Below are positions 8,182-34,871 of a DNA stretch of 64,000 bases, piece after piece. The DNA comes from Maridesulfovibrio sp. (GTDB lineage Bacteria; Desulfobacterota; Desulfovibrionia; Desulfovibrionales; Desulfovibrionaceae). Position 1 is the first letter of the stretch, and each line of letters begins with the position of its first letter. The DNA lies in contig NZ_OY787459.1 in assembly GCF_963678865.1 (NCBI RefSeq), forward strand, positions 1,268,501-1,332,500. The letters are read 5' to 3'. The notes beneath the pieces were generated by a model. It had not been told where the DNA came from, searched no databases, and saw only the letters and a program-made list of their open reading frames with translations. Both the position numbers and the translations under genes were made by a program.

Positions 8182-9366
8182 ATGATTGGTATTTCAAAAC
8201 TTTACTGTGGCGCGGTAGAAACTTCCGATGCCCTGCGCTATGGTCGTGAATCTGGAAAACTGCCTTCTCATCTTTTACAGTTTTCTAAAGATAAAAAACC
8301 CGTTGTTGTCTGGAACATGACCAGACGCTGCAACCTTAAATGTGTCCACTGCTACGCACAGGCTGTTGACCCTGACGGAAAAGACGAAATTTCCACCTCA
8401 AAAGCAAAAGAGATTATCGACGATCTCGCAGCATTCGGCGCCCCGGTGATGCTTTTCTCCGGTGGCGAACCGCTGGTGCGTAAGGACCTCGTTGAGTTGG
8501 CAAGCTACGCTACCGGTAAAGGTATGCGTGCGGTTATTTCCACCAACGGAACCCTGATCACCAAGGAAAAAGCCCGTGAACTGAAAGACGTAGGCCTTTC
8601 CTACGTAGGAATTTCCCTCGACGGAACAGAAGAAACCCACGACAAATTTCGCGGTGTTTCCGGTTCCTACAAAAAAGCCCTCGAAGGTGTTGAAAACTGT
8701 AAGGCCGAAGGTCTTAAAGTTGGTCTGCGCTTCACCATCAACAAACGTAACTGGACTGAAGTTCCTTCTGTCTTCAAAGTCCTGCGTGACCTTGAAGTCC
8801 CCAGAGCATGCTTCTACCATCTGGTATACTCCGGCCGTGGTTCCGAACTCATCAAAGAGGATCTGAGCCACGCTGAAACCCGCCAGTTGCTCGACCTGAT
8901 CATGGATGAGACCAAGGCTCTCTTCGACGCCGGCATGCCCAAAGAAATCCTGACCGTTGATAACCACGCTGACGGTGTTTACGTATACCAGCGCCTGCTC
9001 AAAGAAGATCCCGAACGCGCCAAGGAAGTTTTAGAACTGCTTCAGTTCAACGAAGGCAACAACTCCGGTCGCGGAATCGGCTGCATTTCCTGGGACGGTC
9101 AGGTTCACGCTGACCAGTTCTGGCGCAACCACACCTTCGGCAACGTTCTGGAACGTCCTTTCTCCGAAATCTGGATGGACGAAAAGATTGAGTTGCTGCA
9201 CAAACTCAAAGACAAGAAACAATACGTTGGCGGACGCTGCGCGACCTGCCGTTACCTGAACATCTGTGCCGGTAACTTCCGTGCCCGCGCCGAAGCATAC
9301 TACGACGACATCTGGGCTCAGGACCCGGCTTGCTACCTCACTGACGAGGAAATCAAGAAGGACTAG
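8182..9366 (+). CDS. ahbC: 12,18-didecarboxysiroheme deacetylase AhbC (radical SAM)
   Basis: AhbC removes the two acetate side chains of didecarboxysiroheme to give Fe-coproporphyrin III in the siroheme-dependent heme pathway. The 394-residue protein has the radical-SAM cluster motif C50-x3-C54-x2-C57, the SAM-binding FSGGEPL near residue 93, and a C-terminal auxiliary-cluster region with Cys in GCISW, GRCATC and NICAG plus a late Cys. The N-terminus MIGISKLYCG is the pattern I associate with this subfamily rather than with NirJ. GGGAGGATC lies before the ATG. A terminator follows, and then hemB and ahbD. Confidence 0.88.
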   Translation: MIGISKLYCGAVETSDALRYGRESGKLPSHLLQFSKDKKPVVVWNMTRRCNLKCVHCYAQAVDPDGKDEISTSKAKEIIDDLAAFGAPVMLFSGGEPLVRKDLVELASYATGKGMRAVISTNGTLITKEKARELKDVGLSYVGISLDGTEETHDKFRGVSGSYKKALEGVENCKAEGLKVGLRFTINKRNWTEVPSVFKVLRDLEVPRACFYHLVYSGRGSELIKEDLSHAETRQLLDLIMDETKALFDAGMPKEILTVDNHADGVYVYQRLLKEDPERAKEVLELLQFNEGNNSGRGIGCISWDGQVHADQFWRNHTFGNVLERPFSEIWMDEKIELLHKLKDKKQYVGGRCATCRYLNICAGNFRARAEAYYDDIWAQDPACYLTDEEIKKD

Positions 9367-9423
9367 GCCCACTGTTTTGAAAAACGTTTCATGACGGTCG
9401 TCCTGTCGACGATAAATATTATT

Positions 9424-9460
9424 AAATCCCGGCGGGCCACTAGGTCTGTCGGGATTTTTG
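9424..9460 (+). terminator. Terminator after ahbC
   Basis: AAATCCCG (9424-9431) pairs with CGGGATTTTT (9450-9459), followed by TG. It is placed 57 bases after the ahbC stop, so ahbC can be transcribed without hemB. Confidence 0.75.
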
Positions 9461-9463
9461 TTC

Positions 9464-9693
9464 GCCTCTGGACTTTTCCCCTTCCCAAAACGCGTTGCTA
9501 ATTTTAGCAAATGGAAGCTGGAAACCATCAGAGACTTGAATAATACCCCGCAAAACTTACCGCGGGAAAAAATATTTTTAAATATAGCAAACACAATGCC
9601 CCTGCGGTGACGCCCTATCAAATACTTTTGAAAGGATGGGGTCTGATGAAGGGAAACTTTTGCAAAAGTTTGTCCTTCACCAGCCGCCGGAGG
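9464..9693 (+). repeat. Intergenic GCCTCCGGC/GCCGGAGG-bounded element, copy 1
   Basis: The gap before hemB has a degenerate left boundary GCCTCTGGA (9464-9472) and a right boundary GCCGCCGGAGG (9683-9693). Between them, at 9647-9679, is an imperfect hairpin with arms TGAAGG..AACTTTT and AAAAGTT..CCTTCA. The same layout occurs before darP and mqnC. It ends 19 bases before the hemB ATG. The 9367-9712 gap holds no gene. Confidence 0.6.
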
Positions 9694-9712
9694 TAAAAAA
9701 GGAAGGTCTGAA

Positions 9713-10696
9713 ATGGTATTTGACTTTCACAGGGGACGCAGACTTAGACGTACCCCGGTTATTCGTGATCTGGTCCGTGAAACAACTCTTTCCGCCAGCG
9801 ATCTTATGATGCCCTACTTCGTCTACGAAACAGACGATGAAAATTACAAAAAAGAAATTTCCTCCATGCCCGGCCAATTTCAGCTCAGCCTGAAACAGCT
9901 GGAAATCAAAGTTGAGGAAGCTGTTGAAAATGGCCTCAAGAGCCTGATTCTTTTCGGCATTCCAGCTGAAAAGGACCCCGTAGGTAGTCAGGCATATGAT
10001 GATAACGGGATTGTGCAGCAGGCAATACGCATAATTAAAAAACGTTGGCCTGAACTGCTGGTCTGCACCGATGTCTGCCTGTGTGAATTCACCTCACACG
10101 GACATTGCGGACTCGTCAAGGATGAGGAAATCCTCAACGACGCAACCCTCGACCTGCTGGCAAAGACAGCCCTCTCCCACGCCAAGGCCGGGGCGGATAT
10201 GGTCGCACCTTCAGACATGATGGACGGTCGCGTAGCTGCCATCCGCGAAATTCTGGATGAAAACGGTTTTGCAAACCTACCGATCATGTCCTACTCAGTT
10301 AAATATGCATCATCTTATTACGGTCCTTTTCGCGAGGCAGCTGAAGGCGCCCCTCAGTTCGGGGACCGCAAGACCTACCAGATGGACCCGGCCAACGCCC
10401 GTGAAGGTCTGCGCGAAGCGGCAGCGGACGTTATCGAAGGCGCTGACATTCTTATGGTTAAACCTGCCGGACCATATATGGACATCATCCGCCAGACCCG
10501 CGACAATTTCGACCTGCCTGTAGCGGCATACCAAGTCAGCGGAGAATATTCCATGATCAAAGCTGCAGCATTGAACGGCTGGGTGGATGAAGAATCCGTG
10601 GTCTGGGAATCCCTCCTCGGACTCAAGCGGGCCGGTGCTGATCTGATCCTGACCTACTTCACTGAAGACGTACTTAAAAGACTGAAAGAGAAATAA
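9713..10696 (+). CDS. hemB: Porphobilinogen synthase (delta-aminolevulinate dehydratase)
   Basis: HemB condenses two 5-aminolevulinate molecules to porphobilinogen, the step common to siroheme, heme and cobalamin. The 327-residue length is normal. The two Schiff-base lysines are K197 (SYSVKYAS) and K250 (MVKPAGPY). The zinc-type metal site is present as C122, C124 and C132 in the segment from CTDVCLC to GHC, so it is a Zn-dependent form rather than the Asp-rich Mg form. GGAAGG lies 6 bases before the ATG. It is 1 base from ahbD, so the two are coupled. Confidence 0.97.
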
Positions 10697-28230: not shown

Positions 28231-29112
28231 ATGTCATCACCTGCACTGCTCTACTTCAAACTTATCGGCTCAGTAATATTCTGGGGCGGAACATGGATTG
28301 CCGGAAGAATTCTTGCCGGACACCTGACCCCGTATTCTGCTGCATTCCTGCGCTTTTTCTTTGCCACTATTTTCATGTTCTTCCTCAGTTGCCGGGTTAC
28401 AGGTCATAAACCATCCTGCTCCCGCAAAGATATCTTACCGCTTGCTTTCCTCGGTCTGAGCGGGGTTTTCCTGTATAATATACTGTTCTTCAGCGGTTTG
28501 CAGACTGTCAACGCTGGCAGGGCCGCACTTATTATTGCGGCCACACCTACGTTCATCGCCCTTGGCTCGGCCCTGATTTTCAAAGAAAAATTCACTCTAT
28601 GGAAAATTGCCGGATTCTTACTGGCCCTGACCGGGGTCAGCACCATCATCGGACACGGGAATCCCATATCCATACTGACCGAAGGGACCAGTTACGGAGA
28701 TCTATGCATAATAGGATGTGTAATTAGCTGGGCTGCTTATTCACTTGCCGGGAAACCGGTCATGAAAAGGATAAATCCTATTGAGACGGTTTACTGGTCC
28801 TGCCTGTTCGGAGCATTAATGCTTCTGGGACCAGCCCTGTATCATGGACTTGTTTCAGAGATAATCAGTGCATCACTCATAGATTATAGCTGTATACTGT
28901 ATCTTTCCCTACTCGGAACAGGATTAGGATTCAGTTGGTATTTTGAAGCAATACAGGAAATAGGTCCATCCAAGACCGGAATATTCATCAACCTCGTCCC
29001 AGTTACGGCAGTGGCTCTGGGGGCGGTTATGCTTGGCGAGCCCGTTGACCTGTTTCTCGTAACCGGGGGAGCACTGACCATCTTCGGGGTCTGGCTAACC
29101 AACCGCAGCTAG
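28231..29112 (+). CDS. EamA/DMT family transporter
   Basis: The 293-residue integral membrane protein has ten predicted helices in two EamA repeats (about 8-135 and 150-290). The typical first-helix pattern is IGSVIFWGGTWIAGR, and the repeat ends PTFIALGSALIFKEKFTLWK and VTAVALGAVMLGEPV are classic. Substrate is unknown; relatives export amino acids or other metabolites. It is directly after the C_GCAxxG_C_C gene. Confidence 0.85.
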   Translation: MSSPALLYFKLIGSVIFWGGTWIAGRILAGHLTPYSAAFLRFFFATIFMFFLSCRVTGHKPSCSRKDILPLAFLGLSGVFLYNILFFSGLQTVNAGRAALIIAATPTFIALGSALIFKEKFTLWKIAGFLLALTGVSTIIGHGNPISILTEGTSYGDLCIIGCVISWAAYSLAGKPVMKRINPIETVYWSCLFGALMLLGPALYHGLVSEIISASLIDYSCILYLSLLGTGLGFSWYFEAIQEIGPSKTGIFINLVPVTAVALGAVMLGEPVDLFLVTGGALTIFGVWLTNRS

Positions 29113-29157: not shown

Positions 29158-29378
29158 GCCTCCGGCAGGAGAAAAGACAGAGACCCTCTACACTCCTTAG
29201 TAGGGCTTTGCCTCCGGAGACATTACATTGCAATTAATTTCAATTAAACGTTCCTCAGCACAGGGTGTGCGAACGTAAATTAAAAACAACAAAACCGGCG
29301 CAACCTTAATAAAAAGTTCTGGGATTCTTAAACCCTTTTCCCAAAAGAGTTTAAGCCCCCGGCAGGGCCGCCGAAGGC
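29158..29378 (+). repeat. Intergenic GCCTCCGGC/GCCGGAGG-bounded element, copy 2
   Basis: A left GCCTCCGGC (29158-29166) and a degenerate right GCCGAAGGC (29370-29378) bound the gap before darP. A further GCCTCCGGA is at 29210-29218. An internal hairpin CTTAAAC-C-CTTTT / AAAAG-A-GTTTAAG lies at 29327-29355. The right end is 9 bases from the darP ATG. Confidence 0.55.
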
Positions 29379-32415: not shown

Positions 32416-33504
32416 ATGATCTCAAAAAACTACTTTAAAGCTGCCGGACTCGAACGTATCCTCGACAAAATTCTTGACGAGGAACGACTTTCCATCGAGG
32501 ACGGGCTTACCCTCTTTAATTGTCCCGACCTTAATGCGCTGGGCGCACTTGCTTCCATCCGCAGACGTCAATTACACGGCAACAAGACATTCTACGTAAT
32601 CAACCGCCACATCAATTATACAAACATCTGTGTGAACGGCTGCCTTTTCTGTGCCTATGCCCGCAAGCCCGGTGAAAAAGGCTCTTTCAAACTCAGCAGG
32701 GAAGACATCCTCGAAAAGCTGAAAAATGCACCAATCCCTCCCCGTGAAGTCCACGTGGTCGGTGGGTGCCATCACGATATTCCGCTATCATTTTTCGAAG
32801 AGACCTTCGTTGAAATCAAAAAAATGCTTCCGCAGTCAGCAATTAAATCCTTCACAGCTGTAGAAATCGACCATTTTTCTAAAGCAGAAGGCATCTCCAC
32901 GGTTGAAGTGCTCAAACGGCTTAAAGCTGCCGGTTCCGAGATGCTTACCGGTGGCGGAGCTGAAATCTTCAACCCGGAAGTACGCGCCAAAATCTGCCCG
33001 GAAAAACTTCCCGGCGAAGATTGGTTACGCATCCACGGAGAAGCCCACGGGCTCGGTTTCACCACCAACTGCACTATGCTCTATGGACATGTGGAATCAT
33101 ATGCCGACAGGATTGATCATCTGGACAGGTTACGCCGCCAACAGGATATTTCCGGTGGTTTTAACTGCCTAATTCCCTTACCCTTCCTGACAGAAAACAG
33201 CAGACTGAAAATTGATAATCCTCTTACTGGGGTTGATGAATTACGTAATATTGCTGTTTGCCGACTCATGCTGGATAACATCCCGCACATCAAGTCCTAC
33301 TGGGTAATGCTCGGCGTAAAGCAGGCGCAGACCGCCCTCCATTTCGGCGCCGACGATTTTGACGGAACCGTTGTCGAGGAAAAAATCGGACATATGGCCG
33401 GAGCAGAATCCGAACAGGGATTGAGCCGAACCGAAATCGAAGAAATGATCATCGGCTGCGGGTTCATCCCGGTCGAACGCGATGCTGCTTTTAATGAAAT
33501 TTAA
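32416..33504 (+). CDS. mqnE: Aminofutalosine synthase (radical SAM)
   Basis: MqnE joins the MqnA product to an adenosyl radical of SAM to make aminodeoxyfutalosine. The 362-residue enzyme has the cluster motif C72-x3-C76-x2-C79 (ICVNGCLFCAY) and the family blocks VHVVGGCHHDIPLSF, TGGGAEIFNPEVR and NPLTGVDELRNIAVCRLML (about 272-290), the last one separating it from MqnC. It is followed by a 269-base repeat element and then mqnC. Confidence 0.94.
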   Translation: MISKNYFKAAGLERILDKILDEERLSIEDGLTLFNCPDLNALGALASIRRRQLHGNKTFYVINRHINYTNICVNGCLFCAYARKPGEKGSFKLSREDILEKLKNAPIPPREVHVVGGCHHDIPLSFFEETFVEIKKMLPQSAIKSFTAVEIDHFSKAEGISTVEVLKRLKAAGSEMLTGGGAEIFNPEVRAKICPEKLPGEDWLRIHGEAHGLGFTTNCTMLYGHVESYADRIDHLDRLRRQQDISGGFNCLIPLPFLTENSRLKIDNPLTGVDELRNIAVCRLMLDNIPHIKSYWVMLGVKQAQTALHFGADDFDGTVVEEKIGHMAGAESEQGLSRTEIEEMIIGCGFIPVERDAAFNEI

Positions 33505-33508
33505 GAAT

Positions 33509-33760
33509 GCCTCCGGCGCCCCTTCGGGGACCAGAAAAACTTTTTGAAAAAAGATTCTCTGGTCTCTTCAAAAACTTTTAATAGTTTTGGTCAGTCATTA
33601 AGTTTCTTGACTGGCACTGACAATATTTAAAAAAGGGTTAATTTTTAAATTCACCCTAATCTTCATAAGCCACTGACGCGAAGCCCGTTAAAAAGTTTTG
33701 ATGGGGGAGTCCAGAGGGGGAAACTTTTCCCGAAAGTTTCCCCCTCTGGCCGCCGGAGGC
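33509..33760 (+). repeat. Intergenic GCCTCCGGCG/CGCCGGAGGC-bounded element, copy 3 (best preserved)
   Basis: Nearly all of the mqnE-mqnC gap lies between the perfect 10-base inverse ends GCCTCCGGCG (33509-33518) and CGCCGGAGGC (33751-33760). Just inside the left end is an imperfect hairpin with ACCAGA/TCTGGT arms (about 33530-33577). Just inside the right end is a perfect 17-bp stem (33711-33727 with 33733-33749). It contains no gene. Confidence 0.75.
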
Positions 33761-33773
33761 AAAAAGGTGCAAT

Positions 33774-34871
33774 ATGAATAATCTTACTCAAAGCCCTGCT
33801 GAAGTTCTTGAAATCGGCAAAAAAGTTGAAGCCGGAGAACGCATAAATTTTGATGAGGCCCTGACTCTTCTGGAAAAGGCAGATCTATTTGATCTCGGCA
33901 GCCTTGCCCACTCCATTCGGATGAAAAAACACCCTGAGCCGAATGTTACATACGTCATCGACCGCAACATCAACTATTCGAATATTTGTGACTGTGGGTG
34001 TCGTTTTTGCGCTTTTTACGTTGCGCCGGGTAAAGACGGCGGCTTCGTAATCAGCAAGGAAGAACTGGGACAAAAGATTCAGGAAACTATTGATCTGGGC
34101 GGGACCCAGATTCTCATGCAGGGCGGGCATCACCCGGATCTTCCGCTCTCTTTTTATGAAGATATGCTACGCTTCATCAAAGAGAATTACCCTGTCCATA
34201 TCCACGCCTTCTCCCCTCCGGAAGTGGTTTACTGGAGTGAACTGAACGGATTATCCATCAAAGAAGTTCTGGAAAGACTGATTAAAGCAGGTCTGGCCTC
34301 CATCCCCGGCGGTGGTGCAGAAATTCTGGTTGACGAAGTCCGCAGTCATATAGCGCCCAAAAAATGCAACACTGCCAAGTGGTTGGAAGTAATGGAAACC
34401 GCCCACAATCTGGGGCTGCGCACTACTGCGACAATGATGTTCGGTCATGAGGAAAAACCTGTTGACCGCATAAAACACCTCTTTGCCCTGCGTGAAGTTC
34501 AGGACCGCACTCACGGATTTACAGCTTTCATTCCATGGACCTTTCAGCCTGACAACACAAATATCCCTGATGCCCGCAAGATGACCAGCGTAGAATACCT
34601 GCGCACACTTGCAGTCTCTCGTATCGTGCTCGATAACTTCGACAACGTACAGGTTTCCTGGGTGACCATGGGGCCTAAAATATCGCAATTGGCACTTTAT
34701 TATGGCGGCAATGATTTTGGCTCCACCATGATCGAGGAGAACGTTGTCAAGGCTGCCGGTGTGAGCTTCAGGCTTTCTGAAGCTGAAATTCACAACTTGA
34801 TCATTAAAGCCGGATTCGTACCCAAGCAAAGGCTTATGGATTACACCCTTGCGGAGAAAATTAATGGATAA
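33774..34871 (+). CDS. mqnC: Cyclic dehypoxanthinyl futalosine synthase (radical SAM)
   Basis: MqnC cyclises dehypoxanthine futalosine. The 365-residue enzyme has the cluster motif C72-x3-C76-x2-C79 within DRNINYSNICDCGCRFCAFY, then GGTQILMQGGHHPDLPLSFY, HAFSPPEV and PWTFQPDNT (about 258-266), which identify MqnC rather than MqnE. AAGGTG lies 4 bases before the ATG. It overlaps mqnA by 8 bases. Confidence 0.94.
   Translation: MNNLTQSPAEVLEIGKKVEAGERINFDEALTLLEKADLFDLGSLAHSIRMKKHPEPNVTYVIDRNINYSNICDCGCRFCAFYVAPGKDGGFVISKEELGQKIQETIDLGGTQILMQGGHHPDLPLSFYEDMLRFIKENYPVHIHAFSPPEVVYWSELNGLSIKEVLERLIKAGLASIPGGGAEILVDEVRSHIAPKKCNTAKWLEVMETAHNLGLRTTATMMFGHEEKPVDRIKHLFALREVQDRTHGFTAFIPWTFQPDNTNIPDARKMTSVEYLRTLAVSRIVLDNFDNVQVSWVTMGPKISQLALYYGGNDFGSTMIEENVVKAAGVSFRLSEAEIHNLIIKAGFVPKQRLMDYTLAEKING

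Follow-up and report, generated by a model that had tools for sequence, protein, structure and literature searches.

The 269 nt gap between the menaquinone (vitamin K2) genes mqnE and mqnC of Maridesulfovibrio sp. is nearly occupied by one copy of a palindromic repeat, which recurs in many intergenic copies in this 4.35 Mb genome (G000) and in many genera of the Desulfovibrionaceae. The repeat has a high copy number, lies between genes, keeps its foldback while its sequence changes, is gained and lost at orthologous gaps, and is placed a few nucleotides past stop codons. The explanation we favour, with moderate confidence, is that it is an apparently undescribed, non-autonomous and non-coding palindromic repeat of Desulfovibrionaceae, similar to REP/BIME elements, that is probably transcribed with its neighbours and would act on translation at gene ends; its transcription and its effects on ribosomes are proposed by analogy. 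The spread of the family, its hairpin classes, its placement at stop codons, the Shine-Dalgarno sequence in its outward end and the gain and loss at the mqnE–mqnC gap all go beyond the preliminary description of this DNA. Positions without a contig name refer to the window, i.e., the whole stretch of 64,000 nt that was analysed.

Anatomy of the element between mqnE and mqnC

Read directly from the sequence, the element comprises 252 bases (33509–33760), and its features are listed in Table 1. The perfect 10-base inverse ends claimed in the preliminary description are present, and T33508 and A33761 add an eleventh pair. A repeat search recovered the hairpin inside each end and the 17 bp perfect right stem, as described earlier, the latter being the core of a longer pairing (33706–33727/33733–33754, 91% complementary). 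The element had also been called well preserved, a relative term here, since the left hairpin is mismatched and the best other nearly full-length BLAST match in the genome is only 72% identical. In other copies, the position of the small insert holds, for example, TCTCCGAGGG or CCCTGCCGGGGG. In the predicted fold of the element the two ends are paired together, with a hairpin near each end. The z-score was −8.0 for the RNA fold of 33495–33790 and −7.4 for the DNA fold of 33509–33760, and in both cases none of 200 shuffles was as stable.

Table 1. Features of the mqnE–mqnC element, its flanking genes and the two other family copies in the window.
Feature	Positions	Strand	Details
mqnE, upstream gene	32416..33504	+	NCBIfam MqnE TIGR03700, 475.4 bits (cut-off 434.55); stop codon 33502–33504
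Left terminal repeat	33508..33518	.	GCCTCCGGCG at 33509–33518, 11 bases with flanking T; sequence and predicted pairing of 33508–33518 with 33751–33761
Small insert hairpin, between left end and main left hairpin	33519..33529	.	CCCC-TTC-GGGG
Left hairpin, imperfect	33529..33564	.	GACCAGAAAAACTTTTT/AAAAAGATTCTCTGGTC; arms 33529–33545/33548–33564, 88% complementary (repeat search)
Inner arms around centre	33568..33701	.	TCAAAAACTTTTAA (33568–33581)/TTAAAAAGTTTTGA (33688–33701), 86% complementary (repeat search)
Right hairpin, 17 bp perfect stem	33711..33749	.	CCAGAGGGGGAAACTTT/AAAGTTTCCCCCTCTGG; arms 33711–33727/33733–33749
Right terminal repeat	33751..33761	.	CGCCGGAGGC (33751–33760) and A33761
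AAGG, likely Shine-Dalgarno of mqnC	33764..33767	+	6 nt spacer; outside element
mqnC, downstream gene	33774..34871	+	NCBIfam MqnC TIGR03699, 503.4 bits (cut-off 428.1); nearest named relatives of MqnC in Desulfovibrio sp. MAGs
Second, diverged family copy	29158..29378	.	ends GCCTCCGGCA and GCCTTCGGCG; right end 9 nt before a start codon
Third, diverged family copy	9601..9694	.	recognised by its right half only (hairpin CTGATGAAGGGAAACTTTTGCAAAAGTTTGTCCTTCACCAG and end CCGCCGGAGGT); approximate boundaries, set by eye

The element fills the gap with its boundaries close to both genes, as had been noted, and such hugging is common in the family. The first base of the left 10-mer is 4 nt past the mqnE stop codon. 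Inside the right end there is a GGAGG (33755–33759), which is 14 nt from the mqnC start and therefore outside the usual Shine-Dalgarno distance. This copy supplies no Shine-Dalgarno, because mqnC keeps its own AAGG, the better site; the A-run plus GGT at this site has counterparts in two congeners (G266 and G269). An Rfam search of the element gave no family match (best 30.2 bits against a gathering score of 92), and plasmid and phage records searched in distant mode gave no match at E up to 0.01.

Copy number, unit plan and spread of the family

Word counts were compared with those of the same word reversed. In the Maridesulfovibrio sp. genome, GCCTCCGGCG occurs 76 times forward and 76 times in reverse (reversed word, 3 and 2), and the 12-mer GCCTCCGGCGGC occurs 65 + 59 = 124 times (reversed word, 0). 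BLAST with the whole element returned 85 match rows at E up to 10, self included; apart from the match mentioned above, nearly all of the others are partial, and since the two halves are inverse copies of one another, many places gave matches in both directions. Within the window, the 10-mer exceeds chance only slightly if one mismatch is tolerated, with 9 occurrences (expectation 3.2); 1 shuffle in 100 has at least as many.

Genes were called by home-made scripts rather than a standard gene finder, and for the intergenic count and gap census of Maridesulfovibrio sp. the caller scored Shine-Dalgarno-like sites with a bonus. In an evenly spaced sample of this genome together with the window (864 kb, with 11.5 kb counted twice where one stretch overlaps the window; 83% coding), all 20 exact GCCTCCGGCGGC ends lie outside called genes, one of them being the right end of the mqnE–mqnC element itself (binomial p = 5e-16, with ends treated as independent, which paired ends are not). 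The motif is therefore found beyond chance in intergenic DNA, the point on which the preliminary description had made its proposal depend. Exact ends inside called genes numbered 2 of 61 in all fetched DNA of this genome (motif-picked loci included), 2 of 69 in the congeners G265 and G266, and 5 of 31 in G319, a genome of another genus with 65% GC.

The plan of the unit was examined in 76 halves ending in GCCTCCGGCG or GCCTTCGGCG, taken from the fetched DNA of the same genome. A half unit is about 50–70 nt long. It usually starts with the end word, which closely matches its own complement, followed by a hairpin and a trailer, with a small insert before the hairpin in some units. The element of the family is made of two such half units (GCCTCCGGCGGC, a covarying hairpin and a class-linked trailer) that point towards one another across a variable centre, and many copies are single halves. 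Among 81 element-bearing gaps, with ends of up to 3 mismatches, there are 21 plain +/− pairs (15 of which span 194–334 nt), 50 single-ended copies and 10 others. Three hairpin classes with linked trailers dominate the 33 longer-stemmed halves: CCAGAG/CCAAAG...-ACTC, CTGGGG...-ACCCCATCC and CTTAAACCC...-AATCCC. The listed units of G319 follow this plan; their stems are GC-rich and their trailers mostly resemble GACCC. A TTTGATGCGCTTCGCGCTTTT-like hairpin stretch stands about 30 nt outside some ends (e.g., at 428606, 102296 and 2929034 of contig 1 of Maridesulfovibrio sp.), as if a long-ended form of the element existed.

The 76 halves have 70 distinct 5′ arms, and their best-hairpin scores (median 12.1, against 6.0 in letter shuffles) exceed the shuffles' 95% point in 57 cases. 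Covariation was counted in 33 of the 76 halves (22 distinct stems), selected by stem length and first letters. In the distinct stems, 94.5% of cells are paired, against a mean of 58.8% when the arms are re-dealt (maximum of 500, 75.9%), a fraction that leans high since the stems were picked by a pairing search. Cells changed on both sides number 92, against a mean of 28 (maximum of 500, 58), and the number of pair types in these stems equals the shuffles' value (33 vs 33.0). The foldback is kept while the sequence changes, and the hairpins diverge yet remain paired.

Across 348 genomes of the class, the 12-mer is strongly above its reversed control in many genera of Desulfovibrionaceae and near the control in other genera of that family. 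Counts range from 1 to 317 among 16 congeners (highest in G266, second in G265) and from 130 to 388 in 14 genomes of genus g39 of the same family (388 in G320). In the order's five other families (60 genomes) the maximum is 11 (G004, control 1). A sample of the phylum (395 genomes, 17 of the same family, that of Maridesulfovibrio sp. included) contained one genome outside Desulfovibrionaceae, G383, with clear enrichment (32 + 44 against 3 + 2 for the reversed word), and one family, f21, with a mild excess, e.g., 9 + 14 against 1 + 1 in G656; these are possibly independent or transferred families.

Inverted doublets of a palindromic unit, intergenic and in copy numbers that vary so widely among congeners, are what would be expected of a classical REP or REPIN mobilised by a RAYT (Y1 tyrosine transposase), and such a link had been raised in the preliminary description. 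G265 has three Y1 matches, and at least one match is present in 8 of the 14 genomes of the copy-rich genus g39. However, 14 of the 16 congeners have none, including G266, G262 and G268, nor does G320. The one partial match of Maridesulfovibrio sp. has no exact end word nearby, and two 9-mers with one mismatch occur in its 3.2 kb. Fourteen Y1 loci were fetched, chosen from those listed in other genomes and leaving out the three of G265; 12 of these are without an exact end, and in the others it lies at 132 nt (L280) and 1670 nt (L277). A GTAG or CGTC tag, found at one end of the palindrome in the REP definition of PMC3733652, is absent from the unit ends, as judged by eye in the mqnE–mqnC copy and the half units. 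Mobilisation by a RAYT is for these reasons highly improbable, and the proposed link to a REP transposase was not borne out. The single Y1_Tnp match of Maridesulfovibrio sp. (L141, G000:C1:340872-341066) covers profile positions 55–120 of 121 and so looks truncated.

Placement at gene ends and turnover at orthologous gaps

Element-bearing gaps, with ends of up to three mismatches, are rarely divergent. In the sample of Maridesulfovibrio sp. 1 of 41 is divergent, against 94 of 420 background gaps of at least 60 nt (p = 5e-4), and in 800 kb of G265 and G266 the numbers are 2 of 56 against 97 of 426 (p = 5e-5). Codirectional gaps account for 33 of the 41 and 35 of the 56, and in G265 and G266 convergent gaps are 19 of 56, against 75 of 426 in the background.

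Ends that face a stop codon lie close to it. In G265 and G266, of the 42 exact ends facing a stop codon, 31 start no more than 11 nt from it, where 13.6 (sd 2.1) would be expected if they were placed uniformly in the remaining gap, with single-ended copies taken as 80 nt and gaps shorter than 25 nt excluded (42 of 43 stop-facing ends remained). The tendency is weaker in the sample of Maridesulfovibrio sp. (12 of 26 within 11 nt), and in stretches from five syntenic relatives it is 5 of 8. In G319, 19 of the 31 exact ends follow a stop codon at 2–78 nt, the 7 others outside called genes facing a start. Since stop-facing placement recurs in all of these sets, stop adjacency is the most general placement seen.

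A position after stop codons and in convergent gaps, together with rarity in divergent ones, is also what a transcription terminator or bidirectional 3′-end element, spread by recombination rather than transposition, would show. Against this, the listed trailers have no U-run directly after the hairpins, which bears on intrinsic and not on factor-dependent termination, and the majority of element-bearing gaps are codirectional, a setting in which termination would leave a next gene without its own promoter untranscribed. Neither a promoter nor a terminator beyond chance was found in the mqnE–mqnC gap, and there are no terminator-like sites in 33200–34000. Termination as the role of the family is thus very unlikely; an intrinsic terminator in particular is rejected, there being no U-run after the GC-rich hairpins of the mqnE–mqnC gap or the listed trailers.

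The mqnE–mqnC gap was compared in 17 genomes of the genus, and a full element was found in two, Maridesulfovibrio sp. (269 nt) and G266 (223 nt). Both have TAAGAAT before the element, while the hairpins and centre differ, and the element is followed by AAAAAGGTGCAAT in the former and AAAAAAGGTACAAC in the latter. In G269 the gap is 27 nt and consists of TGCCTGCTGAGGC, read as a remnant in which the two ends are fused, and then AAAAAAGGTGTAAT. Four genomes (G262, G263, G265 and G268) have a gap of 4–6 nt, with a GAGG inside the mqnE tail instead, and seven more distant congeners (G256–G260, G264 and G267) have 18–20 nt with AAGGA or GAGGA. The gaps of G271 (59 nt) and G270 (91 nt) differ from these, and that of G261 (269 nt) contains family-like pieces by eye (a CCAAAGGG/CCCTTTGG hairpin and AAAACTTTTATTAAGC) without the end word. 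In a tree of mqnE and mqnC, G266 is sister to the element-empty G265 (94/94), so that either several losses, or transfer or recombination, or repeated insertion at one site has to be assumed. In a syntenic neighbourhood, G266 carries a full element where Maridesulfovibrio sp. and G269 have 0 nt, G262 has 7 nt, and G268 has 84 nt resembling a decayed half element. Filled, empty, remnant and re-filled states at orthologous gaps of congeners mean that the element turns over, and the differences between gaps are real gain or loss.

Inverted ends, filled and empty orthologous gaps and fused-end remnants would also be left by a MITE without a role for the host, moved in a cut-and-paste manner by the transposase of a DDE-type insertion sequence. 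Placement next to stop codons is, however, unexpected under neutral insertion, and the hairpins stay paired as they diverge. No regular target-site duplication was seen by eye in the flanks examined, with one possible case of 4–5 nt in G266. No transposase that could serve as mobiliser and no autonomous copy was found in the few places examined, where neighbouring elements enclose ordinary genes (recR, lptE, radA and atp, by eye). We regard a purely selfish MITE as unlikely. The gaps on both sides of recR hold elements (G000:C1:1000010-1001049), and further elements lie near atp, radA and lptE, i.e., beside housekeeping genes (all genes named by eye).

Relation to known repeats and possible effects on translation

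BIMEs are built of units in opposite orientations, a likeness to the facing halves of this family. The family is palindromic, repeated and extragenic as REPs are, has the inverted doublets of REPINs, and has terminal inverted repeats as MITEs do. The earlier assignment to a REP/BIME/MITE type therefore holds as far as an interspersed palindromic repeat with many intergenic copies is concerned, but the GTAG/CGTC tag and the link to Y1 genes are lacking. The family unit begins with GCCTCCGGCGGC and belongs to another bacterial family; paired copies span 194–334 nt (15 cases), and there are three main hairpin classes and a GGAGG in the outward end, all unlike REP/BIME elements. As with enterobacterial REP/BIME, part of the copies are found a few nucleotides past stops (PMC12306157). 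The half unit is longer than the 20–40 bp given for REPs, and under the definition in PMC3733652 the missing tag rules out a tagged REP. REPINs as described in PMC3116915 also share singlets that are read as decayed doublets and the loss of a unit from a site. Differing from REPINs with a RAYT, most congeners have no Y1 genes, and none was seen flanked by the element; a RAYT-driven REPIN was discarded because no repeat-flanked RAYT gene was found (12 of the 14 Y1 loci being without an exact end).

The BOX, RUP and SPRITE repeats of pneumococcus, in the account of PMC3049150, are likewise small, interspersed and partly modular, with strong foldback. SPRITE, for which a target duplication is not established, is enriched near the 3′ ends of genes. 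The likeness is one of description, as no sequence relation was seen, and the GC-rich terminal repeats with a Shine-Dalgarno in the end are a difference from all three. A literature search, lying mostly outside subscription journals, found no such family named for Desulfovibrio in titles or the starts of abstracts, in agreement with the preliminary description, which knew of no described family with exactly this layout. To the extent of that search, there is apparently no earlier description of the repeat family, of its ends or of its hairpin classes.

In E. coli, REPs at a distance of under 16 nt from a stop codon are reported to hinder terminating ribosomes (Liang et al. 2015, as cited in PMC12306157), a range that includes the 11 nt within which most stop-facing ends of G265 and G266 begin. 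By analogy with these, an mRNA stem starting a few nucleotides past a stop codon would hinder the terminating ribosome and tune expression of the upstream gene, and in operons the element may also separate a closely spaced stop and start. For the mqnE–mqnC copy such hindrance is possible, as its stem starts 3–4 nt past the stop; replacement of a Shine-Dalgarno is not used there. If this explanation is right, a large and apparently unnamed repeat family, able to take over ribosome binding sites, is present at many gene ends in a large part of a major family of sulfate reducers, and offers a test, outside enterobacteria, of whether stop-adjacent palindromic repeats control translation. The family also needs to be masked when genomes are annotated or searched for structured RNAs.

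A bolder proposal is that the element is a portable switch for translational coupling. The left end, read as the anti-Shine-Dalgarno-like CCUCC, would fall inside the footprint of a ribosome that terminates on the upstream gene. In full copies it would pair, over about 190–330 nt, with the right end and hide the GGAGG there as a landing site, until the terminating ribosome opens the stem and licenses downstream translation. By spreading, the element would then provide neighbouring genes with a ready-made regulatory link. We consider this quite unlikely.

Under the favoured explanation, an action at gene ends, a copy landing just before a start codon could replace the gene's own Shine-Dalgarno, as its outward end reads GGAGGC, and such insertions would thereby be tolerable. 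Read outward, the whole end is GCCGGAGGC, which contains the Shine-Dalgarno core GGAGG. Spacings to starts were counted with a start caller blind to Shine-Dalgarno-like sites. In six genomes, 21 ends are within 30 nt of a start, and 13 of these lie 4–11 nt from it (p = 5e-4 against uniform, with orthologous gaps of several genomes counted separately), as do 6 of 9 in G265 and G266 (p = 0.012), where one start, with an in-frame ATG at 6 nt from the end, was taken at the called distance of 24 nt. None of those 6 ends has another Shine-Dalgarno-like site between it and the start; of all 1090 called genes, 613 carry such a site. In G265 and G266 start-facing ends do not lie closer to starts than they would if placed uniformly (6 of 24 vs 6.8 expected), and in G319 none of 7 is within 50 nt of a start, which makes the supply of Shine-Dalgarno sites opportunistic. 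We regard it as a by-product that is tolerated and at times co-opted, and do not see in it the reason why the family exists.

Two gaps in the window illustrate this supply. In the gap at 9366 (9366–9713), which holds the third copy, the same start codon is used in the five mappable genomes (G265 excluded). Three of them (Maridesulfovibrio sp., G262 and G269) have the element end and then a native AAGGAAG, and in G266 and G268 the GGAGG of the element, 7 nt from the ATG, is the only visible candidate. If the favoured explanation is right, such gaps offer natural experiments in which the effect can be measured, with the same start codon present with and without the site of the element. In the gap at 29112, which holds the second copy, the interior is deleted or decayed in several of six genomes, and a GGAGG, GAAGG or CGAGG 8–10 nt before the ATG is kept in all six, being GAAGG in Maridesulfovibrio sp.
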